Assembly: GCA_913063035.1 (NCBI GenBank)
Contig: CAJXYS010000001.1
Coordinates: 1 to 64,000 of the forward strand
Source of the DNA: an uncultured Maritimibacter sp.
GTDB lineage: Bacteria; Pseudomonadota; Alphaproteobacteria; Rhodobacterales; Rhodobacteraceae
Reading direction: 5' to 3'
DNA length: 64,000 nt
The notes below the pieces were generated by a model that saw only the letters and a list, made by a program, of their open reading frames with translations, was not told the DNA's origin and searched no databases. Below are positions 49,440 to 64,000 of the stretch, in pieces (position 1 is the first letter of the stretch; every line of letters starts with the position of its first letter). Both the position numbers and the translations under genes were made by a program.

Positions 49440-50174
49440 TCAGGCCGCGGAGGCGCCTCCGGCGGCAATCGCCTTTCCCTCGGCCGCCCAGATCGCGCCG
49501 CGGCGGATCATCTCGGTCACCTGCGGCACCTTGAGATCGTCGAGTTCATGCCCGATGGAGCAGTAGAAGACCCGCCCCCTGTCCCAGCGCCGGGTCCAGG
49601 TTACCGGGATGACGGTGCCCTCGATCCACCAGAGATGATCGCCCGAGAAGGTCGTCGTCGCCAACACCTCGTTCGAGGGATCGACCAGCATGTAGTATTG
49701 CTCGGACCGGATGCGGAAGCTCTTGATCCCCCGCACCAGCGGATGGTCCGGCTTGCAGATGGTCACGTCGTAATCGACGTAATCCTCCTGCGGCTGCAGG
49801 TTGTCCGGCCAGCCCGGCGGATGGGCGACGAACTGCCCGCCGATCAGGAAGTGGTAGGTCGGGCGGTCGCGGAAGGCGTCGCCCATGTGCCCGTGCCAGC
49901 CGGCCAGGCCGCAGCCGTTGCCGATCAGCGCCAGCAGGCCGTCTTCCTGCGGCTTGGTCATGTTGCCGAATTCTTCCTTGTGGCCGGACCGGGCCGACGA
50001 CCAGATCGGCGTGATCAGGTCCAGCTCCGCCAGATCGCCGGGACGCTCCAGCGGCTCCAGCGTGTCGTAGACATCGACCTCGAAGCCGTTCTCCTTCAGG
50101 AGGGCCTCGTACCAATCCGCGAAATGGGTCGGGGTGTGGCCTTCCCAGCCACCGACGAAAAGGGCCGCCTTCAT
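49440..50174 (-). CDS. ThuA-like domain protein
   Basis: The 244-residue cytoplasmic protein of the ThuA/trehalose-utilisation fold (class I glutamine amidotransferase-like). Visible stretches: MKAALFVGGWEGHTPTHFADWYEALLKENGFEVDVYDT at the start and GNGCGLAGWHGHMGDAFRD in the middle. Family members act in sugar and polyol catabolism. It is last in the minus-strand operon and overlaps the dehydrogenase upstream by 4 bp. Exact reaction unknown. Confidence 0.85.
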   Translation of the reverse strand: MKAALFVGGWEGHTPTHFADWYEALLKENGFEVDVYDTLEPLERPGDLAELDLITPIWSSARSGHKEEFGNMTKPQEDGLLALIGNGCGLAGWHGHMGDAFRDRPTYHFLIGGQFVAHPPGWPDNLQPQEDYVDYDVTICKPDHPLVRGIKSFRIRSEQYYMLVDPSNEVLATTTFSGDHLWWIEGTVIPVTWTRRWDRGRVFYCSIGHELDDLKVPQVTEMIRRGAIWAAEGKAIAAGGASAA

Positions 50175-51043
50175 TCGTTCCTCTCCCGCATGAAATCGAG
50201 CATTGCCGCCATGTCGCGGCCCGCGAAACCGGCCGCGCTGGCCTGCGACAGTTTCTCGAGCGTCACCCGTCCTTGCGGCATGGCCACGCCGAGCCGGTCG
50301 GCCAGCGCGGCGGTGACAGCCATGTCCTTCCGGGCCAGCGCGACGGTGAAGGTCACGTCATGCGCCGCCTCGTCCAGGTAGAGGGGCCGGCGGTATTTCA
50401 GCATCGGCGCGCAGGCCGCCGAGGCCTCGATCACGTCGAACGCCCTTTCCGGCGCGATCCCCGAGGCCTCGGCCAGGGTCATCGCCTCGGCCAGGGTCTG
50501 GTTGATGCCGTGGATGAGCGAATTGACGGCGAGCTTCATCACCGCGCCCGCGCCCGTTCGGCCGAGACAGATCGTTCGCTTGCCCATCGCGTCGAAGAGC
50601 GGCAGGAGCGGTTTTGCCGCGTCCTCGGGGCAGCCGGCCATGATCATCAACGCGCCATCCGCCGCGGCCTGCGTCGCCCCGGAGACGGGCGCGTCGATGA
50701 CCTGCACGCCCGCGGGCGCACGGGCGGCGAGCTCGGCGATATGATCCGGGCTCATCGTGCCCATCTCGACGAAGATCCCGGCCCCGGTGCCCGCGGCGAA
50801 AAGGCCGTCCGCGCCGAAATGCACCGCTTCCGACGACGGGTCGTCGGCCAGCATCGTGACGACCACCTCGGTCGCGGCGGCCAGTTCGGCCGGCGTCCCG
50901 GCGACGGCGCAGCCAAGCTCCGCCGCGAGCGCCGTGGCCTTGCCGGCCGAGCGGTTCCAGAGGGTCACGTCATGGCCCGCCGCCGCGAGGTTCCGCGCCA
51001 TGTGGGCGCCCATGCGCCCCAGCCCGGCGAAGCCCACCCGCAT
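50171..51043 (-). CDS. NAD(P)-dependent beta-hydroxyacid dehydrogenase (3-hydroxyisobutyrate dehydrogenase family)
   Basis: The 290-residue enzyme has a Rossmann GLGRMGAHMARNLAAAGHDVTLWNRS start, the substrate-binding signature DAPVSGATQAAADGAL and the catalytic lysine in GAVMKLAVNSLIHG. These enzymes oxidise 3-hydroxyacids or related aldonates. Its start shares one base with the stop of the upstream ATPase gene, so it belongs to the transport operon. Substrate not determinable. Confidence 0.88.
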   Translation of the reverse strand: MRVGFAGLGRMGAHMARNLAAAGHDVTLWNRSAGKATALAAELGCAVAGTPAELAAATEVVVTMLADDPSSEAVHFGADGLFAAGTGAGIFVEMGTMSPDHIAELAARAPAGVQVIDAPVSGATQAAADGALMIMAGCPEDAAKPLLPLFDAMGKRTICLGRTGAGAVMKLAVNSLIHGINQTLAEAMTLAEASGIAPERAFDVIEASAACAPMLKYRRPLYLDEAAHDVTFTVALARKDMAVTAALADRLGVAMPQGRVTLEKLSQASAAGFAGRDMAAMLDFMRERNE

Positions 51044-52554
51044 CAGGCCACCTTTTCGGATTCGATCCCCGAGATCGCCTGGATCAGGCTGTCCTCCGTC
51101 ACCTCCTCGGCACTGAACTCGCGCATGATCCGGCCGTGATACATCGCCACGATCCGGTCGGAGACATGCAGCACCTCGGGCATTTCCGAGCTGATGACGA
51201 TGACCGCGTAGCCCTGCCCGGCCAGATCCCGGATCAGGTTGTGGATCTCGGACTTGGAGCCGACGTCGATGCCGCGCGTGGGCTCGTCCACGATCAGCAC
51301 GTTCGGATGCATCGAGAGCCACTTGCCGATGACGATCTTCTGCTGGTTGCCGCCCGAAAGGTTGCCCACGGTCTGCCGCCAGCCGGGCGTGCGGATGTCG
51401 AGCTTGTCGCGGTACTGGTCGAAGATCGCGATCTCCGCGCCGTCCGACACGAAGGGCCCCGCGGTCAGGTCGTCCACCTGCGGCAAGGTCATGTTGTCCC
51501 GGCAGTTCATCCCCAGCACGAGCCCCTGGCCCTTGCGGTCCTCCGGCACGAGGCTGATGCCGTGACGGATCGCGTCGACCGGCGAATGGATGCGCAGTTC
51601 CTGCCCGTCGAGCAGGATCTGCCCCTCGGACGGATCGCGCAGGCCGAAGATCGTCTCGGCGATCTCGGTCCGTCCGGCGCCCACGAGCCCGTAGAAGCCG
51701 ACGACCTCGCCCCGGTGCACCTTGAAGCTGACATCGCGGTAGAGATCCCCGCAGGAAAGCCCGCGCACCTCCAGCGCGACCTCTCCATGCTCGCGATGCT
51801 CCTCGTTGCGCGACAGGTCGAGGCTGCGCCCGATCATCAGCTGGGTCACCTCGTCCTCATCGGTCTTCGCCGTCTCGAGCGTGCCGCGATACTGCCCGTC
51901 GCGCAGCACGCTGATACGGTCGGTGATCTTGAAGATCTCCTCCATCCGGTGCGAGATGTAGACGATCCCCACCCCGCGGGACTTGAGATCCGCGATCACG
52001 TCGAAGAGCACGACCTTCTCGGCATCGGTCAGCGAGGCCGTCGGCTCGTCGAAGATCACCGCGCGCGGATCGACGGTCAGCGCGCGCGCGATTTCCACCA
52101 TCTGCTGGTTGGCGATCGACAGGTCGCCGACGCGGGTCCGGGCGTTGAAGCCCACGTTCAGCGTCTTGAGAATGGCATCCGTCTGCTCGTAGAGCTTGCC
52201 CCAGTCGACGCGGCCGAAGGACTTGCGCGGCAGTTCACCCAGAAAGATGTTCTCGGCCACGCTCAGCTCGTCCGCGAGGCTGAGTTCCTGGTGGATGAAG
52301 ACGACCCCCTTGGCCTTGGCATCGAGGGGGGTCGTCATGATCGTCGACTCTTCCTCGATGAAGATCCGCCCCTCGTTGGGCTGAAGGATTCCGCCCAGCA
52401 CCTTCATCAGGGTGGACTTGCCGGCGCCGTTCTCGCCCATCAGGGCATGGACCTCGCCGGGCATGACCGCGAAGGACACGTCGTCGAGCGCCCGCACGCC
52501 GGGGAAGGTCTTGACGATGTTCTCGAGCCGCAGGGCCGGTTTCTCATCGGTCAT
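51043..52554 (-). CDS. Sugar-type ABC transporter double ATPase (RbsA/MglA family)
   Basis: The 503-residue protein has two nucleotide-binding domains. The first has Walker A GENGAGKST and ends with the Walker B/D-loop IFDEPTASLTD; the second has the degenerate Walker A GLVGAGRTE, signature LSGGNQQK and Walker B VLIVDEPTRGID. This is the RbsA/MglA layout of monosaccharide importers. It is coupled to two permeases and a binding protein in the same operon. Confidence 0.94.
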   Translation of the reverse strand: MTDEKPALRLENIVKTFPGVRALDDVSFAVMPGEVHALMGENGAGKSTLMKVLGGILQPNEGRIFIEEESTIMTTPLDAKAKGVVFIHQELSLADELSVAENIFLGELPRKSFGRVDWGKLYEQTDAILKTLNVGFNARTRVGDLSIANQQMVEIARALTVDPRAVIFDEPTASLTDAEKVVLFDVIADLKSRGVGIVYISHRMEEIFKITDRISVLRDGQYRGTLETAKTDEDEVTQLMIGRSLDLSRNEEHREHGEVALEVRGLSCGDLYRDVSFKVHRGEVVGFYGLVGAGRTEIAETIFGLRDPSEGQILLDGQELRIHSPVDAIRHGISLVPEDRKGQGLVLGMNCRDNMTLPQVDDLTAGPFVSDGAEIAIFDQYRDKLDIRTPGWRQTVGNLSGGNQQKIVIGKWLSMHPNVLIVDEPTRGIDVGSKSEIHNLIRDLAGQGYAVIVISSEMPEVLHVSDRIVAMYHGRIMREFSAEEVTEDSLIQAISGIESEKVA

Positions 52555-53552
52555 ATCTTCAACTCCTCCTTGCCCTTGCGATTGAGCTGGCGATCGAGGA
52601 ACAGCACCGCGATCAGGATCAGGCCGATCACGAGGTTCACCGTCTCGGTGTCCGCCCCGATATGACCGAGCCCCTTGCGCAGCAGCTGGATCGCGATGAC
52701 GCCACCCAGCGTCGAGACGATCGAGCCGTAGCCGCCCGTCAGCTTGGTGCCGCCCAGCACGACGGCCGTGATCGCCCAGAGTTCGTAGAGCATCCCGTCA
52801 TTCGGGTTCACCGAGCCGGACTCGGAGTAAAACACAACGGCCGAGAGCGCGGCGAGAAACCCGATCAGCATGAAGTTCAGCAGGAAATGCGGCCCGACCC
52901 GGATGCCGGCATTCACCGCCGCCTCGCGGTTGTTGCCGATGGCATAGGCGTTGCGGCCATGGACGGTCTTGGTCATAACCAGCCAGAGCACCAGCGCCGT
53001 GCCCAGCAGGAACCAGGTCGCGGTGTGAAGCCCGAGGAATTGCGCCTCGGCGAAATCGACCAGCGTCCAGTTCAGATGGCTCGTGGGCTGCTCGCCGTTA
53101 TACATGAAGACGAGCCCGCGATAGCCCAGCATCGCCCCCAGCGTCACGATGAAGGCATCGACACCGGTCTTCCAGACGATCAAGCCGTTGATCGCCCCCA
53201 GCACGACGCCGGTCAGCAGCGCCAGGGTCCACGACACCGGGATCACCCAGTCGCCGAGGCCGGCGAAGATCGGCCAGGTCATCGAGTCGAGCAGCACGAT
53301 GGCGCTGAGCGCGAAGGTCGCGCCGACGCTCAGGTCGATATTGCCGTTGATCATGATGATCGTCATGCCGAGCGCGATAATCCCGATCGGCGCCGACTGC
53401 TTCAGCAGAAGAAGCATGTTGTCGAAGTCGATGAAGGACTGCTCGGAGACCGACATGAAGTTTCCGGCCACGGTGAAGAAGATCAGCTCCACCACGATGA
53501 AGGCCCAGATCGCCCCCTGCTTGACGAGATTTGCGCGGGTGTCCTTGGTCAT
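52551..53552 (-). CDS. Sugar-type ABC transporter permease (RbsC family) 1
   Basis: The 333-residue permease has 8-10 hydrophobic helices. The RbsC-family segment INGNIDLSVGATFALSAIV and the later GTKLTGGYGSIVSTLGGVIAIQLLRKGL are diagnostic. It overlaps the ATPase gene by 4 bp (ATGA). Together with permease 2 it forms the membrane channel. Confidence 0.93.
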   Translation of the reverse strand: MTKDTRANLVKQGAIWAFIVVELIFFTVAGNFMSVSEQSFIDFDNMLLLLKQSAPIGIIALGMTIIMINGNIDLSVGATFALSAIVLLDSMTWPIFAGLGDWVIPVSWTLALLTGVVLGAINGLIVWKTGVDAFIVTLGAMLGYRGLVFMYNGEQPTSHLNWTLVDFAEAQFLGLHTATWFLLGTALVLWLVMTKTVHGRNAYAIGNNREAAVNAGIRVGPHFLLNFMLIGFLAALSAVVFYSESGSVNPNDGMLYELWAITAVVLGGTKLTGGYGSIVSTLGGVIAIQLLRKGLGHIGADTETVNLVIGLILIAVLFLDRQLNRKGKEELKI

Positions 53553-53563
53553 GGTCCCCTCCC

Positions 53564-54538
53564 TCAGGCGATCGGCGACAGGAGCCGGCCGCGCTTGGCC
53601 GCGATATCCAGCCAGACCGCCAGGATGATGATGACCCAGGTCACGACGTACTGGACGTAGAATTCCAGCCCGACGAGAAGCAGGCCGTTCTGGATGAAGC
53701 CGAGGATCAGCACCCCGATCACCGTCTTGAAGACCGTGCCCGACCCCCCCAGAAGCGACGCGCCGCCGAGAATGACCGCGGCCAGCACCTCGAGTTCCAT
53801 GCCCTGGCCCACCGTGTTCTGGCTGCCGAGCGAGCGGCTTGCCTGTATTAGCCCCGCCGTGGCGACGCAGAAGGCCGAGATCAAGTAGGTCATGAAGACC
53901 ACCCGCGCCCGCGGCACGCCCGAGAAGGTGGCCGCCATGCCGTTGCCGCCCACGGCGTAGACTTTGCGCCCGAACGGCGTCTTGGCCAGCACCATGCTCA
54001 GCACCACGGCGAGCAGCGCGAAGATCAGGATCGGCACCGGCACGCCCAGGATGCTGCCCTGCCCGAAGATGCCGAACCAGGTGCCTTCCTTGTCGGCGAT
54101 GTCCATGTTCTTGCCGCCCGAATAGGTCAGGGTCAGCCCATGGATGGCCGAGAGCATGCCGAGCGTCACGATCAGCGAGTTGAGCTTCAGGTAGCCCACC
54201 AAAAAGCCGATGAACGCGCCCAGCGCCAGCGTCATCCCGTACATCGCGGGAATGCCGAGCGCCGGGCCGAGCTTGTCGTGAAGGTCCAGCACCACGATGG
54301 TCGAGAAGGACATCATCGAGCCGACCGAAAGATCGAGATTGCCGCCGATCACCACGAAGGTCACCCCGAGCGCCATGACGCCGAGGATCGCCGAGGACCG
54401 GATCACGCCGAAGATGTTGTCCATCGTGATGAAGCGATCATTGGCCAGCGCGAACCCGATCATAAAGAGAACGAAGGCCACGATGATCCCCTGGCGTGCC
54501 AGGAAGCCGCCTATGTTTTTCGTTGTCAGCGCCGCCAT
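53564..54538 (-). CDS. Sugar-type ABC transporter permease (RbsC family) 2
   Basis: The 324-residue permease has 8-10 hydrophobic helices. Family segment: IGGNLDLSVGSMMSFSTIVVLD; later GGASLLGGSGTVFKTVIGVLILGFIQNGL. It begins MAALTTKNIGGFLARQ. It lies 11 bp before permease 1. Confidence 0.92.
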   Translation of the reverse strand: MAALTTKNIGGFLARQGIIVAFVLFMIGFALANDRFITMDNIFGVIRSSAILGVMALGVTFVVIGGNLDLSVGSMMSFSTIVVLDLHDKLGPALGIPAMYGMTLALGAFIGFLVGYLKLNSLIVTLGMLSAIHGLTLTYSGGKNMDIADKEGTWFGIFGQGSILGVPVPILIFALLAVVLSMVLAKTPFGRKVYAVGGNGMAATFSGVPRARVVFMTYLISAFCVATAGLIQASRSLGSQNTVGQGMELEVLAAVILGGASLLGGSGTVFKTVIGVLILGFIQNGLLLVGLEFYVQYVVTWVIIILAVWLDIAAKRGRLLSPIA

Positions 54539-54571
54539 GAATTCCTCCCCTTCCGGCTGCCGCCTCGATTG

Positions 54572-55369
54572 TCAGACCAGGGTCATACCGCCGTCGATCA
54601 TGACGATTTGCCCGGTCATGTAGTCGCTGTCCCGCGAGGCCAGGAACGTCGTGGTACCGGTAATGTCCTCGGGCGTCGCGACGCGCCCTTTCAGGATATC
54701 GGCCGAGAACTCTTCCATCGCCTGGCCCGGGCGCTCCGACGCGCCGATGGCCATCAGGTCACGGTCGACCTCTTCCCACATCTCGGTGGCGACAACCCCG
54801 GGGGCGAACCCCGTGACCGTGATATCATGTTTCGCGAGATCCCGCGCGCCCGACTGGGTCAGCGACACCACCGCCCATTTGGACGCGCAGTAGGGCGCGA
54901 CGTTGTCGAACCCCTGCCGGCTGGCGATCGAGGCGGTGTTGACGATCTTGCCGCCGCCGCCCTGCGCGATCATCTGCCGCGCGGCTTCCTGCATGCCGAT
55001 CATGCAGCCCAGCCCGTTCACGCCCATGATGAAATTCCAGTTGTCCTCGGTGACGTCGAGGAAGTTCATCGGCTTGTTGACGCCGGCATTGTTGAACTTG
55101 ACGTCGAGCTTGCCGAACATCTCGACCGCGTGGGCGATCATCGCCTGCACCTGGGCGCGGTCGGTGACGTCGACCGCCGCGCTCGTGACACGGCCGCCGC
55201 CCGCTTCGGCGCGCTGGCGGCTGGCTTCCGCGACCCCGGCGACCTTCTCGCCGTTTATGTCGGCGAAACAGACATCGGCGCCCGCGTCGAGCAAGGCCTC
55301 GCCGATGGCACGCCCGATGCCCTGTGCGGCCCCCGTGACAATACAGGACCGGCCCGAGACTCGACCCAT
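54572..55369 (-). CDS. Short-chain dehydrogenase/reductase 1
   Basis: The 265-residue SDR has the cofactor motif TGAAQGIG, the NNAG stretch (FNNAGVNKP), and the Ser/Tyr/Lys catalytic set in NTASIAS...YCASK. It is similar through its length to the SDR at 58456-59265 (shared DNW segment, MIAQG and DSDYMTGQ endings), so the two are paralogs. It lies between the permeases and the binding protein, so it may oxidise the imported sugar or polyol. Confidence 0.92.
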   Translation of the reverse strand: MGRVSGRSCIVTGAAQGIGRAIGEALLDAGADVCFADINGEKVAGVAEASRQRAEAGGGRVTSAAVDVTDRAQVQAMIAHAVEMFGKLDVKFNNAGVNKPMNFLDVTEDNWNFIMGVNGLGCMIGMQEAARQMIAQGGGGKIVNTASIASRQGFDNVAPYCASKWAVVSLTQSGARDLAKHDITVTGFAPGVVATEMWEEVDRDLMAIGASERPGQAMEEFSADILKGRVATPEDITGTTTFLASRDSDYMTGQIVMIDGGMTLV

Positions 55370-55457
55370 CTCGTCTCCCCCTCGTGTCGTGGTCTTGTGA
55401 GGCCGGAAAACGCGCGGGGCACGCGACCGTGCACACCCCGCGCATTCCGGGAGGAGA

Positions 55458-56408
55458 TCAGAAGACGGGCTTGTCGAACTGATCCATGTTGTCCTGGGTG
55501 ATCTTCGGCGTGTCGAAGTAGTTCAGGAACGGAACCTCTTCGCCGTTGAGCACGTCGATCGCGGTCTGCAGCGCGGCCTCGGCGTCGTCCACCGGCGACT
55601 GGTAGATCGAGCCCCAGTAATCGCCCGCGGCCATCGCCTCGTAGCCGACGGCGAAGTTGGTCGCGCCCACGAAGATGATGCCCTCGCGGCCGGCGGCCTT
55701 GGCGGCGTTCAGCGCGCCGACGCCCATGTTGTCGTCGCCAGAATAGACGCCGTCGATGTCGTCATACTTGACGAGGAAGGCTTCCATGACCTGCTGCGAC
55801 TTCTCGCGGTTCCAGTCGCCCGGCTGCTGGTCGATCTGCTCCACGTTCGGGCAGACTTCGGGCAGGCGGTCGTTGAAGCCCTTGGCGCGCTCGATGGCGG
55901 TGGTGTAGCCGGGCTGACCGGTGATGTGCACGACCTTGGCCTCGTCCTCGATGCCCATGTCCTTGAACTTGTCGCACATGATCTCGGCGGAGCGCCGGCC
56001 CTGGGTGATGTTGTCGGGGCCCGAGAAGGAGGCGACGAAGTCGAAGCCCTGCTCGGCGATGTTCGAGTTGGTGACGATCACCGGGATGTCGGCCTGGTGC
56101 GCCTTGCGGACGGCCGGGATGACGGCCTCGCCGTTGGTCGGCCAGATGATGATCGCGTCGACTTGCTGCTGGATCAGGTCTTCCATCTGCGCGATCTGGC
56201 GGGCGACGTCGCCGCCGGCGTCGAGCACCACGGTCTCGACGTCGGGGTTCGCCTCGGCCGCGGCGATGAAGGCCTTTTCATAGGTCGTCTGGTAGCTGTC
56301 GACACCGACGTTGTTCTGGGTGATGCCGATGGTCATTTCCTGCGCGACGGCAGCGGTGCCGAGCAGCGCGGTAGAGGCGAAAAGAGTCGCCGTGATCGAG
56401 TGTTTCAT
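55458..56408 (-). CDS. Periplasmic sugar-binding protein of the ABC transporter
   Basis: The 316-residue periplasmic-binding-protein type 1 (ribose/galactose-type). A signal peptide (MKHSITATLFASTALLGTAAVAQE) is cut near residue 22. The core begins MTIGITQNNVGVDSYQTTYEKAF, with IDGVYSGDDNMGVGALNAAKAAG near the hinge. Ribosome site AAGGGAGG. It is the first gene of the transport operon and divergent from the regulator. Confidence 0.94.
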   Translation of the reverse strand: MKHSITATLFASTALLGTAAVAQEMTIGITQNNVGVDSYQTTYEKAFIAAAEANPDVETVVLDAGGDVARQIAQMEDLIQQQVDAIIIWPTNGEAVIPAVRKAHQADIPVIVTNSNIAEQGFDFVASFSGPDNITQGRRSAEIMCDKFKDMGIEDEAKVVHITGQPGYTTAIERAKGFNDRLPEVCPNVEQIDQQPGDWNREKSQQVMEAFLVKYDDIDGVYSGDDNMGVGALNAAKAAGREGIIFVGATNFAVGYEAMAAGDYWGSIYQSPVDDAEAALQTAIDVLNGEEVPFLNYFDTPKITQDNMDQFDKPVF

Positions 56409-56528
56409 TGCGGGGTCCTCCCTTGAGACGTTCTAACCCGATTGCCGCTGTCCTCCCAGCCCGGGAATCAGCCCGGTGCAATCGACTCCCATCCAGCATG
56501 TTTCGCACGGACGGCGCGGCCGGGTATC

Positions 56529-56545
56529 TTATCCGATATGGATAA
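56529..56545. promoter_or_regulatory. Inverted repeat in the divergent regulator/transporter gap
   Basis: TTATCC-gatat-GGATAA is a perfect 6 bp inverted repeat with a 5 bp spacer. Further half-sites TATCCG (56551) and GGATAT (56583) follow in an AT-rich island. It is a candidate operator for the adjacent regulator. Confidence 0.45.
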
Positions 56546-56615
56546 TTTACTATCCGTAACGGACATTTTTGAGATACTGGCTGGATATCAATCTGAACAA
56601 TTTGGGGGGCGCGCC

Positions 56616-58445
56616 ATGACGGCACGTGGGCACCGGGGCGGAACCGCCCAAGAGAACACAGCTTACATGAACCAGGAAACGACACAAATTGTCCGAAATG
56701 GATATCCGGTTGGTGGGTCATCCGAGGCCTCCGCGCCCTCGGGCGGCGGCGCGGACCTGGATCGTGTCGTCCGGTTCCTCGAAGAGCTCTGTGTCGAGCT
56801 CGACACCGCGCTGGAGCCGACGACGCCCAATCCGCATCTCAACATGATCCTGCACCTCCTGCGCAGCCATGTTGAGGGGCGGCTCGTCTCGGCCTCGTCG
56901 CTGGTGGCGGCCTCGGGCGTGCCCTACGCGACGGCGATGCGCAAGCTGGGCGACATCCAGAAAGCGGGCCTCGTCGAGCAGCGACCGCGCACCAAGACCG
57001 GCAAGAGCTTTTCGCTGCATCCCAGCGCGCAGCTACTGGAGGACTGGCAGCAGATCGCCGACCGGATCGAGCGGATCGCGACCGAATCCTTCGGCGACGC
57101 CTCCGGCGGCCGTGGCCAGGCGGAATACTATTTCGGCGATTCCTACCAGCCGGGCCAGGCCCTGATCCCGCCGCCGCGCGCCCTGCCCCAGCCGCTGCGC
57201 CTGTCGGGCGGGGTCCGGATCCTCGTCCATGGCGACCCGACCTTCATGGTCATGGAAAACCTGAAGCGCCAGTTCGAGCAGATCGTCGGCACCTCGATCC
57301 ACCAGCGCGCCTTCTCGATCGACCGGCTGCGCGAGGAAGCGCTGCGCAACGCCACCCGGGCCAAGAGCCGCTATGACCTGATCGCCGTCGACCTGCCCTG
57401 GATCGGTGAGTTCGTGAAGCGCGGGGTCGTGCGCCCGCTGACCGAGGTCATGGATACCGGGCGGCTCGACCCCAGCGATTTCCACACCGCCGGCTGGCGC
57501 GCCGCGCACTGGAACGGCGTGCCCTACGGCGTGCCGAGCCAGACCACGCCGGAGCTGATGTTCTACCGCCGCGACTGGTTCGCCACCGAGGGCCTGGAGC
57601 CTCCCGCGACCACGGACGCGGTCATCGAGGCCGCGCGCCGCTTCCACGCCCCGCGCAAGGGGCGCTACGGCATCGCCTGGAACGCCGCGCGGGGCACGGC
57701 GCTCGGCCATACCTTCATCATGACCTGCGCCGATTTCGGCCAGCCGGTCATCGACATCCCCCGCATCGCGGGCGGCTTCGACGCCGACCATCTCGAGCGG
57801 CCGGACATCCGCCCGACCATCGACACCCCGCGCGGCCGCGCGGCGGCGGAATACCTGATGCAGCTGATGGAGTTCTCGCCGCCCGACATCCTGTCGATGT
57901 CCTGGTACGAGCGGGTTCGCCCCTATGCCGCCGGCAAGGTGGCGATGGCCTACGGCTATACCCTGCTGGCCCCCTATTTCGAGCTGGACACCGGCTGCCC
58001 GGCGCATGGCAACACCGGATACGTTCCGCATCCGCACGGCCCGGAAGGCGCGCCCATCGCGCCCGTCGGCGGCTACGTGCTCTGCCTGCCGGCGAACCTG
58101 TCGGAAGACCGCCTGGAGGACGCGGTCGAGGCGCTGATCGCCTTCACCTCGCCGGCCGCACAGAAACTCTATGCCCAGAACGGCAGCCGCACCGCCCCGC
58201 GGTACTCGGTCGGGGCCGATCCCGAGGTGCGGCGGCTCTCGCCCATCTTCGAGATGGTCGACCAGATGTCCTGGCGCGACGAGCTGCAGTTCTGGCCGCG
58301 CCCGCCGATCCCGCAGATTTCCGAGATCATCCGGATCTGCGGCCACGAGCTGCACGACATGCTGCGCGGCGTCGTCGCGCCCGAGGACGCCCTCGCGCGG
58401 GCCCAGGCCCGCGCCGAGGAAGCCATGACAAAACCGGTCACTTAG
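56616..58445 (+). CDS. Winged-helix regulator fused to a solute-binding-protein domain
   Basis: The 609-residue protein has no signal peptide. Residues about 75-137 read as a winged helix (HLLRSHVEGRLVSASSLVAASGVPYATAMRKLGDIQKAGLVEQRP). From about residue 199 to the end it reads as an extracellular family 1 solute-binding protein (VRILVHGDPTFMVMENLKRQFEQIVGTS; FYRRDWFATEGLEPPATTDAVIEAARRF). This suggests a cytoplasmic one-component sensor. I chose the ATG at 56616 (GGGGGG ribosome site); an in-frame ATG at 56538 is possible. It is divergent from the ABC operon and followed 10 bp later by an SDR gene. Confidence 0.8.
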   Translation: MTARGHRGGTAQENTAYMNQETTQIVRNGYPVGGSSEASAPSGGGADLDRVVRFLEELCVELDTALEPTTPNPHLNMILHLLRSHVEGRLVSASSLVAASGVPYATAMRKLGDIQKAGLVEQRPRTKTGKSFSLHPSAQLLEDWQQIADRIERIATESFGDASGGRGQAEYYFGDSYQPGQALIPPPRALPQPLRLSGGVRILVHGDPTFMVMENLKRQFEQIVGTSIHQRAFSIDRLREEALRNATRAKSRYDLIAVDLPWIGEFVKRGVVRPLTEVMDTGRLDPSDFHTAGWRAAHWNGVPYGVPSQTTPELMFYRRDWFATEGLEPPATTDAVIEAARRFHAPRKGRYGIAWNAARGTALGHTFIMTCADFGQPVIDIPRIAGGFDADHLERPDIRPTIDTPRGRAAAEYLMQLMEFSPPDILSMSWYERVRPYAAGKVAMAYGYTLLAPYFELDTGCPAHGNTGYVPHPHGPEGAPIAPVGGYVLCLPANLSEDRLEDAVEALIAFTSPAAQKLYAQNGSRTAPRYSVGADPEVRRLSPIFEMVDQMSWRDELQFWPRPPIPQISEIIRICGHELHDMLRGVVAPEDALARAQARAEEAMTKPVT

Positions 58446-58455
58446 GGAGGAAACC

Positions 58456-59265
58456 ATGGACCCCAATCGCCTGAACGGAAAAAACATCCTGATCACCGGC
58501 GCCGCCCGCGGCATGGGCGCGGCCAACGCCGAGAGCTTCGCCGCCCAGGGCGGCAACGTGTGCATCGGGGACCTGGACCTCGACGAGGCCCAGAAGGTGG
58601 CCGACCGCATCAACGCGGCCGGCAACGGCAAGGCGATTGCGGTCAAGATGGACGTCACCAAGCGCGAGGACAACGCCGCCGCCGTCGCGGCCACCGTCGA
58701 CGCCTTCGGCTCGATCAATGTCGGGCTCTTCAACGCGGGCCTGAACAAGCCCCGGTTCTTCATGGATATCGATGAAGACAACTGGGACATGATCATGAAC
58801 GTCAATACCAAGGCGATGTGGCTCGGCATGCAGGAGACGGCCAAGCAGATGATCGCGCAGGGCCCGATGGAAGATCATCCCTACAAGATCATCAATGTCG
58901 GCTCCATCGCGTCGCGCAAGCCGCTGGTGGACGTGACCGTCTACTGCACCTCCAAATACGGCTGCCTCGCCCTGACCCATTGCGGCGCCGTCGCGCTGGC
59001 CGAGCACAACATCACCGTCAACGGCTACGCGCCGGGCGTGGTGGTCACGCCGCTCTGGGAACAGCTCGACAAGGATCTCGTGGATATCGGCTTCAAGCAG
59101 AAGGCCGGCCAGGCCTACGAAGACATCGTCCGCGACGCGCTCCAGATCAAGCGGGTTTCCTACCCCGACGACATCACCGGCACGGCGTCGTTCCTGGCCA
59201 GCAACGACAGCGACTACATGACCGGCCAGATGATCCATATCGACGGCGGCTGGTGCATCCAGTGA
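58456..59265 (+). CDS. Short-chain dehydrogenase/reductase 2
   Basis: The 269-residue SDR has the cofactor motif TGAARGMG, FNAGLNKP at the NAG position and catalytic Ser/Tyr/Lys in NVGSIAS...YCTSK. It is a paralog of the SDR at 54572-55369. Its ribosome site is AGGGAGG, 10 bp after the regulator, so it is probably co-transcribed with it. Substrate unknown, likely a polyol or hydroxyacid. Confidence 0.93.
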   Translation: MDPNRLNGKNILITGAARGMGAANAESFAAQGGNVCIGDLDLDEAQKVADRINAAGNGKAIAVKMDVTKREDNAAAVAATVDAFGSINVGLFNAGLNKPRFFMDIDEDNWDMIMNVNTKAMWLGMQETAKQMIAQGPMEDHPYKIINVGSIASRKPLVDVTVYCTSKYGCLALTHCGAVALAEHNITVNGYAPGVVVTPLWEQLDKDLVDIGFKQKAGQAYEDIVRDALQIKRVSYPDDITGTASFLASNDSDYMTGQMIHIDGGWCIQ

Positions 59266-59349: not shown

Positions 59350-60648
59350 ATGTCTCGCGCACTCATGCCCAATATGCTCACCCCGCAGGACCTCGAGCCG
59401 AACTGGCGCTGGGAAGGGCGGCTGCCGGCCTGGGGCCACACCTCGGTCGATTTCGAGCGCCGCATCGACCATGACCGCCTGCGCCGCTACCGGCTTGCCC
59501 GGACCCGCGAGGCGCTCAAGGCGTCGAACGCGGGCACGCTGCTGCTGTTCGACGTGAACAACATTCGCTACGTCTCGGCCACCAAGATCGGCGAGTGGGA
59601 ACGGGACAAGATGTGCCGCTTCTGCCTGCTGACGGGCGATGACTCGCCTTACGTCTGGGACTTCGGCTCGGCCGCGGTGCACCACCAGAAGTATTCCGAC
59701 TGGCTGGAACCCGATCACTGCCTCGCCGGCGTCGTCGGCATGCGCGGCACGATCCCGCCGGAATTCGGCCTGATGCGGAAATATGCCAAGCAGATCGCCC
59801 AGCTGATCAAGGATGCCGGCATGGCCGACATGCCGGTGGGCGTGGACTACGCGGAAACCGCCATGTTCCACGCGCTGCAGGAGGAAGGCCTGCACGTGGT
59901 CGACGGCCAGCAGATCATGCTGGCGGCGCGCGAGATCAAGAACTGGGACGAGATCCAGCTTCTGACCCAGGCGGCCAGCATGGTCGACGGCGTCTACCAC
60001 ATGATCTACGAGGAGCTGAAGCCGGGCGTTCGCGAGAACGACATCGTCGCGCTGTCCAACAAGATGCTCTACGAGATGGGCTCGGACGACGTCGAGGCGA
60101 TCAACGCGATCTCGGGTGAGCGGTGCAACCCGCATCCGCATAACTTCACCGACCGGTATTTCCGCCCCGGCGACCAGGCGTTCTTCGACATCCTGCAGTC
60201 CTACCAGGGCTACCGGACCTGCTACTACCGGACCTTCAACATCGGCCGCGCGACCAGCGCCCAGACCGACGCCTACGTAAAGGCGCGGGAATGGATCGAC
60301 GCCTCGATCGACCTGATCCGCCCCGGCGTGACGACCGATGTCGTGGCGCAGGCCTGGCCGACGGCCGAGGAATTCGGCTTCCCGTCTGAAGACGCGGCCT
60401 TCGGCCTGCAGTTCGGCCACGGGCTCGGCCTCGCGCTGCACGAGCGGCCGATCATCAGCCGCGCGGTCAGCCTCGATCACCCGATGGAGATCCAGACCGG
60501 CATGGTCTTCGCGCTGGAGACCTACTGCCCGGCCACGGACGGCTACTCGGCCGCGCGGATTGAGGAAGAGGTCGTCGTGACCGACACCGGCTGCGAGGTG
60601 ATCTCGCTCTTCCCGGCCGAGGAACTGCCGATCGCCAACCGTTACTGA
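59350..60648 (+). CDS. M24-family (creatinase/prolidase-fold) protein with one altered metal ligand
   Basis: The 432-residue pita-bread-fold protein has an N-terminal creatinase-like domain (LLLFDVNNIRYVSAT) and a C-terminal M24 domain. Of the five usual metal ligands four are visible: Asp280, His357 (FGHGLG), Glu390 (FALETYC) and Glu405 (RIEEEV). The second Asp position is Cys291 in YQGYRTCYYRTF. The start at 59350 follows CGGAG; a start at 59317 is less likely. It is probably a non-standard hydrolase or lyase rather than a normal peptidase. Confidence 0.85.
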   Translation: MSRALMPNMLTPQDLEPNWRWEGRLPAWGHTSVDFERRIDHDRLRRYRLARTREALKASNAGTLLLFDVNNIRYVSATKIGEWERDKMCRFCLLTGDDSPYVWDFGSAAVHHQKYSDWLEPDHCLAGVVGMRGTIPPEFGLMRKYAKQIAQLIKDAGMADMPVGVDYAETAMFHALQEEGLHVVDGQQIMLAAREIKNWDEIQLLTQAASMVDGVYHMIYEELKPGVRENDIVALSNKMLYEMGSDDVEAINAISGERCNPHPHNFTDRYFRPGDQAFFDILQSYQGYRTCYYRTFNIGRATSAQTDAYVKAREWIDASIDLIRPGVTTDVVAQAWPTAEEFGFPSEDAAFGLQFGHGLGLALHERPIISRAVSLDHPMEIQTGMVFALETYCPATDGYSAARIEEEVVVTDTGCEVISLFPAEELPIANRY

Positions 60649-60712: not shown

Positions 60713-61690
60713 ATGAGCGACGCCAAGCACAACTCCGAGGATTACCTGCGGATGTACCGCCAGATGGTGCGCATCCGCACCTTCGAGGACAACGCGAACC
60801 AGCTTTACCTCTCGGCCAAGATGCCGGGGCTTACGCATATGTATTCGGGCGAGGAAGCCGTCGCGGTGGGCATCTGCGAGGCGCTGACCGACGACGACCG
60901 CATCACCTCGACCCATCGCGGCCACGGGCACTGCGTCGCCAAGGGCGCCGAGTTCAAGGAGATGTTCTGCGAGTTGCTCGGCAAGGAAGAGGGCTATTGC
61001 CGCGGCAAGGGCGGGTCGATGCACATCGCCGACCAGAGCCACGGCAACCTGGGCGCCAACGCCATCGTCGGCGGCTCGATGGGGATCGCGACGGGCTCGG
61101 CCCTGCGCGCCAAGCTGCAGGGCTCGGACGACGTCACGGTCTGCTTCTTCGGCGACGGTGCCACCGCGCAGGGGCTTTGGTACGAGGTCATGAACATGGC
61201 CGCGCTCTGGAAGCTGCCGGTCATCTACGCCTGCGAGAACAACGGCTATTCCGAGTACACCAAGACCGAGGAAATCGCCGCCGGCTCGATCACCGCGCGG
61301 GCCGAGGCCTTCGGCATCGAGGCGCACCAGGTCGACGGGCAGGACGTGCTCGCCGTGAACGCGTTGACGCGGAAACTGGTCGACCGCGCGCGCAAGGGCG
61401 AAGGCCCGTTTTTCATCGAGTTGATGACCTACCGCTACCACGGCCACCACGTCGGCGACATCAACCGCGAGTACTACCGGTCCAAGGACGAGGAAAAGGA
61501 CTGGAAGGAAAACCGCGACCCGATCGTCCGCTTCCGCGGCTGGCTGGTCGAACAGGGCATCGCCAGCGAGGACGAGATCGAGGCGATGAACGCCGAGATC
61601 AAGAAGGACGCGAGTGATGCCGTCGCCTATGCCGAGGCCGCCAAGTACCCCGAGGCGTCCGAGGTCGACATGCATGTTTACGCGGACTGA
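60713..61690 (+). CDS. Dehydrogenase E1 alpha subunit (pyruvate/acetoin type)
   Basis: The 325-residue thiamine-diphosphate subunit has the TPP motif GDGATAQGLWYEVMNMAALWKLPVIYACENNGY and an N-terminal RMYRQMVRIRTFEDNANQLYLSAKMPGLTHMYSGEEAVAVG typical of E1alpha. Ribosome site AGGGAGA. Followed 11 bp later by E1beta. Acetoin dehydrogenase (AcoA) is the closest general type; the true substrate is unknown. Confidence 0.92.
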   Translation: MSDAKHNSEDYLRMYRQMVRIRTFEDNANQLYLSAKMPGLTHMYSGEEAVAVGICEALTDDDRITSTHRGHGHCVAKGAEFKEMFCELLGKEEGYCRGKGGSMHIADQSHGNLGANAIVGGSMGIATGSALRAKLQGSDDVTVCFFGDGATAQGLWYEVMNMAALWKLPVIYACENNGYSEYTKTEEIAAGSITARAEAFGIEAHQVDGQDVLAVNALTRKLVDRARKGEGPFFIELMTYRYHGHHVGDINREYYRSKDEEKDWKENRDPIVRFRGWLVEQGIASEDEIEAMNAEIKKDASDAVAYAEAAKYPEASEVDMHVYAD

Positions 61691-61701
61691 GGAGAGATAA
61701 G

Positions 61702-62697
61702 ATGCGAGAGATTACCCTGTCCCAGGCCGTGAACGAAGCCATCGCCGAGGAAATGCGTCGCGACGAAACGGTCTTCCTGATCGGCGAGGACGTGGCCGAG
61801 GCCGGCACCCCCTTCAAGGTGCTCTCGGGCCTCGTCGACGAGTTCGGCACCGACCGCGTCATCGACACGCCCATCGCCGAGCCGGGCTTCGTCGGGCTGG
61901 CCGTCGGCGCCGCCATGACCGGGGCGCGGCCAATCGTCGACCTGATGTTCGGCGATTTCATCTACCTGGTGATGGATCAGCTCTGCAACCAGGCGGCCAA
62001 GCAGCACTACATGTCCGGCGGCAAGCTCAAGGTGCCGATGGTGCTGCGCACGAATCTCGGCGCGACGCGCCGCTCGGCCGCGCAGCACTCGCAGTCGCTG
62101 CAGGCGCTCGTGGCGCATATCCCGGGGCTGAAGGTGGCGCTGCCCTCCTCGGCCTACGAGGCCAAGGGCCTGATGAAGACGGCGATCCGCGACAACAACC
62201 CGGTCGTCATCTTCGAGGACAAGCTGATGTACCAGGACAAGGCCCCCGTGCCCGAAGGGGAATTCCTGATCCCCTTCGGCGAGGCCAACGTCAAGCGCGA
62301 GGGCGGTGACATCACGCTGATCGCGACCTCCTCGATGGTGCAGGTGGCCGAGAAGGCCGCCGAGACGCTCGCCGCCGAGGGCATCGAGGCCGAGGTGATC
62401 GACCCGCGCACCATCGTGCCGCTGGACGAGGCGACGCTGCTGGACAGCGTGAAGAAGACCTCGCGCGCCATCGTCATCGACGAGGGCCACCAGAGCTACG
62501 GCGTCACCGCCGAGATCGCGAGCCGCCTGACCGAGAAGGCCTTCTACCACCTCGACGCGCCGGTCCTGCGGATGGGCGCGATGGACGTGCCGGTGCCCTT
62601 CAGCCCGGCGCTCGAGGACCTGACCGTGCCGACGCCCGAGGCCGTGGTCGAGAACGCGCGCAAGCTCTGCGCCGGGGAGATGATCCATGCCGCATGA
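61702..62697 (+). CDS. Dehydrogenase E1 beta subunit (pyruvate/acetoin type)
   Basis: The 331-residue transketolase-like E1beta has the stretches FLIGEDVAEAGTPFKVLSGLVDEFG and DTPIAEPGFVGLAVGAAMTGARPIVDLMFGDFI. The C-terminal domain has VIDPRTIVPLDEATLLDSV. Ribosome site AGGAGAG. It overlaps the E2 gene by 11 bp. Confidence 0.92.
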   Translation: MREITLSQAVNEAIAEEMRRDETVFLIGEDVAEAGTPFKVLSGLVDEFGTDRVIDTPIAEPGFVGLAVGAAMTGARPIVDLMFGDFIYLVMDQLCNQAAKQHYMSGGKLKVPMVLRTNLGATRRSAAQHSQSLQALVAHIPGLKVALPSSAYEAKGLMKTAIRDNNPVVIFEDKLMYQDKAPVPEGEFLIPFGEANVKREGGDITLIATSSMVQVAEKAAETLAAEGIEAEVIDPRTIVPLDEATLLDSVKKTSRAIVIDEGHQSYGVTAEIASRLTEKAFYHLDAPVLRMGAMDVPVPFSPALEDLTVPTPEAVVENARKLCAGEMIHAA

Positions 62698-64000
62698 GGT
62701 GATCATGCCGGCGCTCGGCATGGCGCAGGACAGCGGCGTGATCGTGCGCTGGCTGAAATCGGCGGGCGACCCGGTCAAGGAGGGCGACGCGCTCTTCGAG
62801 GTCGAGACCGACAAGGCCACGATGGAGGTCGAGGCCCAGGGTGGCGGCTTCCTGACGGACGTCGCGGCCGCGGCCGGCGACGACGTGCCGGTGGGCCGCG
62901 TGATCGCGCGGATCTCCGACACGGCCGAGGACAGCGGCCCGCCCGCGGCAGACGGCGCGCCAGCGGCGGAAACCGCGGAAGATGGCGCGGGCGATGCCCT
63001 GCCTGACGGGCAATCCGTCATCATGCCGGCGCTCGGCATGGCCCAGGACAGCGGGCTGATCGTCAGCTGGCAGAAAGCGCCCGGCGACGCGGTCGCGGCC
63101 GACGACGTGCTCTTCGAGGTCGAGACCGACAAGAGCACGATGGAAGTTCCCGCCGGCCATGACGGCTATCTCGCCGCGACGCTGGCCGTGGCGGGCGAAG
63201 AGGTGCCGGTGGGCGAAAGCGTGGCCATCATAGCCGCCGGGAAACCCGACGCCCCCGTCGCGCGCAGCCGGGCGGAGGCCCCAGCCGCCCCCGCCCCGGC
63301 CGCGGCGCCCCCCGCCGCCGAGGCCGCGCCCGCGCCCCCTGCCGAGAAACCCGCGGCCCCGGCCCGGGCGGCCCCGGCCGAGACCGGCGGGCGCGTCCTG
63401 GCCTCGCCCAAGGCGCGCCGGCTGGCGCTGCAGGAAGGCCTCGACCTCGCCCGGCTGGCCGAGGCGGGCCATCCGCAGCCCTATCATGTCCGCGATCTCG
63501 ACACGCTTCGCGGCATGCCTGCCGCGCAGGCCGCCGCGGCGCCCGGCACCGCGGCGGCCGCGCAGCGGCTGGTTGCGGAAACCGCCGCGGACGGCTTCGC
63601 GGATTTCGCCGCCTGGGCGGCCGAGGGCGCCGGCCTGGCCGACGACATGGCCCTTCTGGCAGGCCTCGGCGCCGCCAGCCTGCGCCGCAGCGGCGCAGAG
63701 GGCCCGCTGACCGTCGCGGTGGCGCGGTTCGGAACCGAGCGGCGCTATGCCGATCCCGACCGGCCCGCGCTTGGCCGGGCGGCGCACGACCCCGACGCCC
63801 CGGCGCCGGACCTGGTGCTGCGCGACCTGCGCCAGAGCGCCATCGCAAGCGTCGCGATGGGGGCCGAACCCGCCCCGGTCCTGACGCTCACGCGCGCCGG
63901 CGACGGGCTCTCGATCACCCTCGAATGCGGGCCGGGGCAGCTTGCGCCCGGCCGGGCGATCACGCTTCTCACCGAATTCGCAGGCCGGATGGAGCAGCCG
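62687..64000 (+). CDS. Lipoyl E2-like protein with degenerate catalytic domain, partial at window end
   Basis: 438 codons are visible and the frame is open at the edge. Two near-identical lipoyl domains carry lipoyl lysines in ETDKATMEV (about 43) and ETDKSTMEV (about 148). An Ala/Pro linker (about 195-230) leads to a peripheral-subunit-binding domain (VLASPKARRLALQEGLDLARL). The remaining C-terminal part matches the shape of an acyltransferase domain, but the usual DHRVVDGA is replaced by GPGQLAPG, so His and Asp are lost. It is thus probably a lipoyl carrier without normal acyltransferase activity; more sequence may lie beyond the window. Confidence 0.88.
   Translation, partial: MPHEVIMPALGMAQDSGVIVRWLKSAGDPVKEGDALFEVETDKATMEVEAQGGGFLTDVAAAAGDDVPVGRVIARISDTAEDSGPPAADGAPAAETAEDGAGDALPDGQSVIMPALGMAQDSGLIVSWQKAPGDAVAADDVLFEVETDKSTMEVPAGHDGYLAATLAVAGEEVPVGESVAIIAAGKPDAPVARSRAEAPAAPAPAAAPPAAEAAPAPPAEKPAAPARAAPAETGGRVLASPKARRLALQEGLDLARLAEAGHPQPYHVRDLDTLRGMPAAQAAAAPGTAAAAQRLVAETAADGFADFAAWAAEGAGLADDMALLAGLGAASLRRSGAEGPLTVAVARFGTERRYADPDRPALGRAAHDPDAPAPDLVLRDLRQSAIASVAMGAEPAPVLTLTRAGDGLSITLECGPGQLAPGRAITLLTEFAGRMEQP

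Follow-up and report, generated by a model that had tools for sequence, protein, structure and literature searches.

A putative cytoplasmic one-component regulator combining a MarR-like winged helix with a MalE-type binding-protein domain beside a sugar ABC operon of an uncultured Maritimibacter sp.

In this work, we present a computational analysis of a gene from an uncultured Maritimibacter sp. (Rhodobacteraceae), located in a 64,000-nucleotide stretch of contig CAJXYS010000001.1, further called the window. Its product is very probably a cytoplasmic one-component transcription regulator, in which a winged helix would bind tandem palindromes and a solute-binding-protein (SBP) domain would sense a sugar, a polyol or an early catabolite, switching two divergent operons. 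The gene is best read as encoding a local regulator of a locus for the uptake and oxidation of a polyol or sugar, and in dozens of marine bacteria it adjoins one sugar-uptake operon. The protein also probably represents an undescribed regulator family, built of a MarR-like winged helix and a complete MalE-type binding protein. In Alphaproteobacteria it would comprise several paralogous clades; a sugar ABC operon adjoins most members, variants of one operator candidate are common to several clades, and public annotation presents the proteins as extracellular solute-binding proteins.

If this is true, regulators have been counted among the transport proteins of marine alphaproteobacteria and transporter counts need correction, while sugar and polyol loci lacking a known regulator gain a ready operator and regulon. 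An intracellular sensor would then have arisen from the MalE-type sugar-binding class, just as LacI makes use of PBP type 1, and the SBP domain would offer a handle for finding which substrate this uncharacterised pathway takes up and oxidises.

Domain architecture and predicted structure

The open reading frame is intact and full-length. The position of its first ATG (56616) is kept in many orthologues; residues 1–44 are disordered and poorly conserved (11% identity), so M18 (ATG 56667) is a possible start as well. Coordinates of all features are collected in Table 1.

A preliminary description, made from the sequence alone, had placed a winged helix at about residues 75–137 ahead of a full-length family 1 binding-protein domain, and had proposed structure prediction and profile searches as checks. 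Both agree with it. In Pfam the protein matched SBP_bac_1 (E 3e-23) and also SBP_bac_8, and SBP_bac_1 was found in 60/60 homologues. Matches to the winged helix were weak on the single sequence (residues 77–126; MarR_2 0.013, HTH_IclR 0.058) and firmer over the 60 homologues, with MarR_2 present in 27 (best 2e-6) and HTH_IclR in 19. NCBIfam held no family matching the protein. The AlphaFold2 model of the full-length regulator, for which the alignment consisted of 60 natural homologues from other genomes, has a mean pLDDT of 87 and contains a winged helix at 73–136 (helices 73–87, 93–99 and 104–116, strands 120–124 and 132–136) flanked by helices 45–65 and 138–159. A disordered linker (160–198, with a low-confidence stretch at 161–180) leads to a complete SBP fold at 199–605.

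Folded alone, the N-terminal domain reached pLDDT 89, and its top fold matches were winged-helix proteins of the MarR type (Foldseek, VIA), with Z up to 9.0, which is modest given how small and common the fold is. The SBP part (model residues 192–604) superimposes on 5iai with Z 47 over 395 residues (VIA). The nearest solved SBP structures, 5iai, 1eu8 and 4rya, include trehalose/maltose binders, and 4rya was deposited as a sorbitol-binding protein. Conservation of the SBP domain is strong, its mean identity between orthologues being 76%, and W262, W430, Y446, R499, W560 and R562 are near-invariant over 60 divergent members.

Table 1. Features of the regulator locus (positions in the window)
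Feature	Position	Strand	Basis or remark
ThuA-like protein	49440..50174	-	
3-hydroxyisobutyrate/tartronate-semialdehyde-type dehydrogenase	50171..51088	-	
Sugar ABC ATPase, RbsA-like, two ABC domains	51043..52554	-	
Sugar ABC permease 2	52551..53552	-	
Sugar ABC permease 1	53564..54538	-	
SDR dehydrogenase	54572..55369	-	best NCBIfam match acetoin reductase, below cut-off
Periplasmic binding protein, PBP type 1 (Peripla_BP_4)	55458..56408	-	
Operator 1 (putative), TATCCGATATGGATA	56530..56544	.	position, co-conservation
Operator 2 (putative), TATCCGTAACGGACA	56551..56565	.	21 bp from operator 1
One-component regulator (predicted), 609 aa	56616..58445	+	alternative start ATG 56667
Operator 3 (putative), TGTCCGAAATGGATA	56690..56704	.	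inside 5' end of regulator gene
Winged-helix DNA-binding domain, residues 73–136	56832..57023	+	AlphaFold2, fold match to MarR proteins, Pfam over homologues
MalE/SBP_bac_1-type ligand domain, residues 199–605	57210..58430	+	Pfam, structure match
Second SDR dehydrogenase	58456..59265	+	directly downstream of regulator
M24-fold enzyme, distantly DddP/creatinase-like	59350..60648	+	
TPP-dependent dehydrogenase E1 alpha	60713..61690	+	
Dehydrogenase E1 beta	61702..62697	+	conserved synteny, Phaeobacter orthologue annotation
Lipoyl/E2-type protein	62687..64000	+	runs past window end; synteny, Phaeobacter annotation

Cellular location

The N-terminus of the regulator has neither a signal peptide, as the preliminary description had held, nor a lipobox or a twin-arginine motif (RR), and its hydropathy is low; residues 1–70 contain a single Cys, C59, which is preceded by EEL. 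Nearly all annotated plasmid matches carry the label of extracellular solute-binding protein, and we give almost no credence to what that label implies, namely a normal periplasmic protein with a mis-called start. Besides the absence of an export signal, the winged helix is kept in all aligned homologues, upstream of the SBP domain and in the same frame, a conserved operator candidate is present, and a PBP-type SBP is already encoded at the locus. The absent export signal, the structure model and the conservation contradict this reading, and it was rejected. A fusion produced by a frameshift or an assembly error was rejected too, since the frame is the same in 78 GTDB loci and in 34 paralogue loci; one paralogue, in locus L122, is split by a stop.

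Neighbouring genes

The regulator gene faces a ribose-type ABC operon on the minus strand (49440–56408), whose binding protein, as stated beforehand, is of PBP type 1. Downstream, in the annotated Phaeobacter locus, the operon of the regulator continues with genes for a lipoyl protein, an aldehyde dehydrogenase, E2 and lpdA, and in the genome studied here an aldehyde dehydrogenase gene and an E2 catalytic-domain gene lie just beyond the window. Two acetoin-reductase-like SDRs, found together with an aldehyde dehydrogenase and an E1/E2/E3 complex, hint at a pathway in which a diol or polyol would be oxidised to an acyloin, subsequently cleaved to acyl-CoA and an aldehyde. The M24-fold enzyme is among the most conserved proteins of the locus (81–96% identity in the main orthologous loci) and is only distantly like the DMSP lyase DddP.

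Tandem palindromes in the divergent promoter region

A 15-bp palindrome, TRTCCR-NNN-YGGAYA, occurs in the divergent promoter region between the ABC operon and the regulator gene, within the segment 56409–56615 that had earlier been proposed for EMSA. Two copies are spaced by 21 bp, which corresponds to two helical turns and places them on the same DNA face; a third copy, inside the gene, recurs at the corresponding position in close orthologues. A spacing of exactly 21 bp between two copies was found in 56/76 orthologous regions, compared with 0.37 on average and never more than 2 among 100 dinucleotide-shuffled sets; about a quarter of the regions are without a clear pair. A pattern search of the 3.2-Mb genome returned six copies of the perfect palindrome, three of them at this locus. 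Another conserved element, TCAATCTGAACA, stands just before the regulator start (56585–56605) and resembles a degenerate operator half.

Variants of the palindrome accompany the paralogues as well. With up to 2 mismatches, TGTCAGATYTGGACA-like sites are present upstream of 11/11 members of clade a (shuffle mean 1.5), TGTCCANTYTGGAAT-like sites upstream of 5/5 members of clade c (shuffle mean 0.7) and TGTCCAATTTGGACA-like sites upstream of 3/3 members of clade e (shuffle mean 0.4). In clade b a variant was found upstream of only 2/6, and in clade d, which is 31–34% identical and has a different wing sequence, no palindrome beyond chance was found upstream. This co-variation of site and paralogue clade is, at the level of sequence comparison, the strongest evidence that the winged helix may read the palindrome.

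The palindromes could also belong to another regulator, with the fusion protein controlling something else. This is very unlikely in our opinion: clade d without a site would fit it, and operator binding by the fusion protein is itself putative, yet orthologues have the sites at this gene, paralogues with other neighbouring genes have variants of them upstream, and the rest of the genome is almost free of such sites. The regulatory role, formerly a guess, draws strong support from the conserved tandem operator candidate and from the presence of the same fusion across Rhodobacterales.

Distribution and paralogues

The search for the fusion covered Pseudomonadota. The same combination of winged helix and SBP_bac_1 was found in 78 GTDB loci, nearly all of them with one conserved gene order, which is nearly invariant where enough flanking sequence is available. 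A search in other Rhodobacteraceae had been suggested for the fusion, and a relative is indeed present in 71/395 genomes of the family. Strong matches occurred in 9/385 genomes at the class level, where one genome matches over the SBP domain only, and in 6/398 at the phylum level; among the carriers at these two levels are some genomes of 1.4 Mb and one that belongs to a different class. In its own genome the regulator is single-copy, the sole other match being a weak, partial one to the SBP.

Paralogues are 31–53% identical to the regulator and reside mostly beside other sugar ABC operons; in the tree each of their clades is monophyletic with strong support. Clade b regulators (about 45% identical; loci L111–L115 and L143) adjoin the orthologous second SDR gene, mostly also those of the M24 enzyme and E1, and their ABC transporter differs from that of the main locus. 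Judging by gene content, it looks as if one catabolic core had been kept while the module of transporter and regulator next to it was swapped. L119 and L123 belong to a single genome, in which regulators of two different clades stand in one cluster on either side of a ribose-type ABC operon.

Proposed mechanism and ligand

We propose that the MarR/IclR-like winged helix, probably dimeric through the flanking helices 45–65 and 138–159, binds TRTCCR-NNN-YGGAYA at the tandem operators between the divergent operons and at the third operator within the gene start. The C-terminal MalE-type domain would bind an imported sugar or polyol, or an early catabolite, in the cytoplasm, and its open/closed change on ligand would alter DNA binding. 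The targets switched in this way would be the ABC uptake operon and the regulator-SDR-M24-E1-E2 operon, and the regulator is probably autoregulated. Control could be by repression or by activation, because the putative sites lie ~121–157 bp upstream of the start codon of the transporter SBP and a promoter consensus scan gave no match.

A variant of this reading, which we consider tentative, is that the SBP domain senses a downstream metabolite (e.g. an oxidised or phosphorylated intermediate) instead of the transported compound. The transporter's own binding protein is of an unrelated fold class, so the ligand need not be shared with the regulator, and clade b regulators stand by the same M24/E1 genes with another transporter; against it, the nearest SBP structures bind a sugar or polyol. 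An SBP domain which has lost small-molecule binding and serves as a protein-protein module, e.g. reading transporter activity, seems improbable. A cytoplasmic location is unusual for an SBP domain, but the fold is complete and close to a solved sugar-type SBP (Z 47), and its aromatic and charged residues are near-invariant over the 60 divergent members.

Comparison with known regulators

The classical analogue is LacI, a local sugar-gene regulator in which the LacI HTH is fused to a PBP type 1 fold and which acts at a palindromic operator. The protein described here shares with it the fusion of an HTH to a periplasmic-binding-protein fold, presumed local control of sugar genes and a putative palindromic operator, but has a winged helix and a MalE-like (type 2) ligand domain, the LacI-like type being that of the neighbouring transporter SBP. 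Pfam gave no match to the LacI HTH or Peripla_BP in the window protein. MarR proteins have about 140 aa and bind ligand between the DNA-binding and dimer regions, while IclR carries a GAF-like effector domain. Both resemble the regulator in the winged-helix fold and the palindromic operator and differ in the effector domain, which here is an SBP; the protein exceeds the stand-alone MarR size of ~140 residues without a separate effector, and Pfam found no IclR effector domain in it beside the weak HTH_IclR match. Operator-like sites at its own promoter, a feature of one-component regulators, are present as the conserved tandem palindrome. The SBP_bac_1 transport proteins 5iai, 1eu8 and 4rya share the fold of the ligand domain and are without a DNA-binding domain; the export signal or lipobox typical of extracellular members is absent from the regulator.

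The closest known design is that of SgrR of E. coli, which, as DsvR of Vibrio cholerae, is a transcription factor of sugar metabolism with an N-terminal HTH and a C-terminal SBP_bac_5 domain (PMC13060122). The common trait is an HTH and a solute-binding domain in one transcription factor tied to sugar metabolism; the difference lies in the ligand domain, SBP_bac_1/SBP_bac_8 here, and in the location next to a sugar ABC operon, where the regulator has a tandem operator candidate to itself. In Pfam the window protein had no SBP_bac_5 and, at E up to 1, no SgrR-type HTH, with weak MarR_2/HTH_IclR matches instead. The HTH-SBP design is hence already known from SgrR, DsvR and LacI, and the defining features of SgrR and LacI that were tested fail here. 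SBP Pfam domains are also known to occur as sensors of regulators (survey, PMC9602780). In the literature, of which subscription papers were mostly outside our reach, we found no description of a family joining a winged helix to SBP_bac_1, only the SgrR-type precedent and this general statement on SBP sensors.

Leader of the ABC operon

Rfam matched no family in 56300–56800. The 5' leader of the ABC operon (56440–56487, minus strand) has a conserved predicted RNA structure in which GATTGC ... GCAATC closes two hairpins. One of them (GCUG-GGAGGA-CAGC) has in its loop GGAGGA, a repeat of the Shine-Dalgarno sequence, and might possibly act as a decoy or a small-RNA target. Hairpins with GGAGG in the loop and at least 5 perfect stem pairs were found in 17/76 orthologous leaders, against 0.86 in shuffles.
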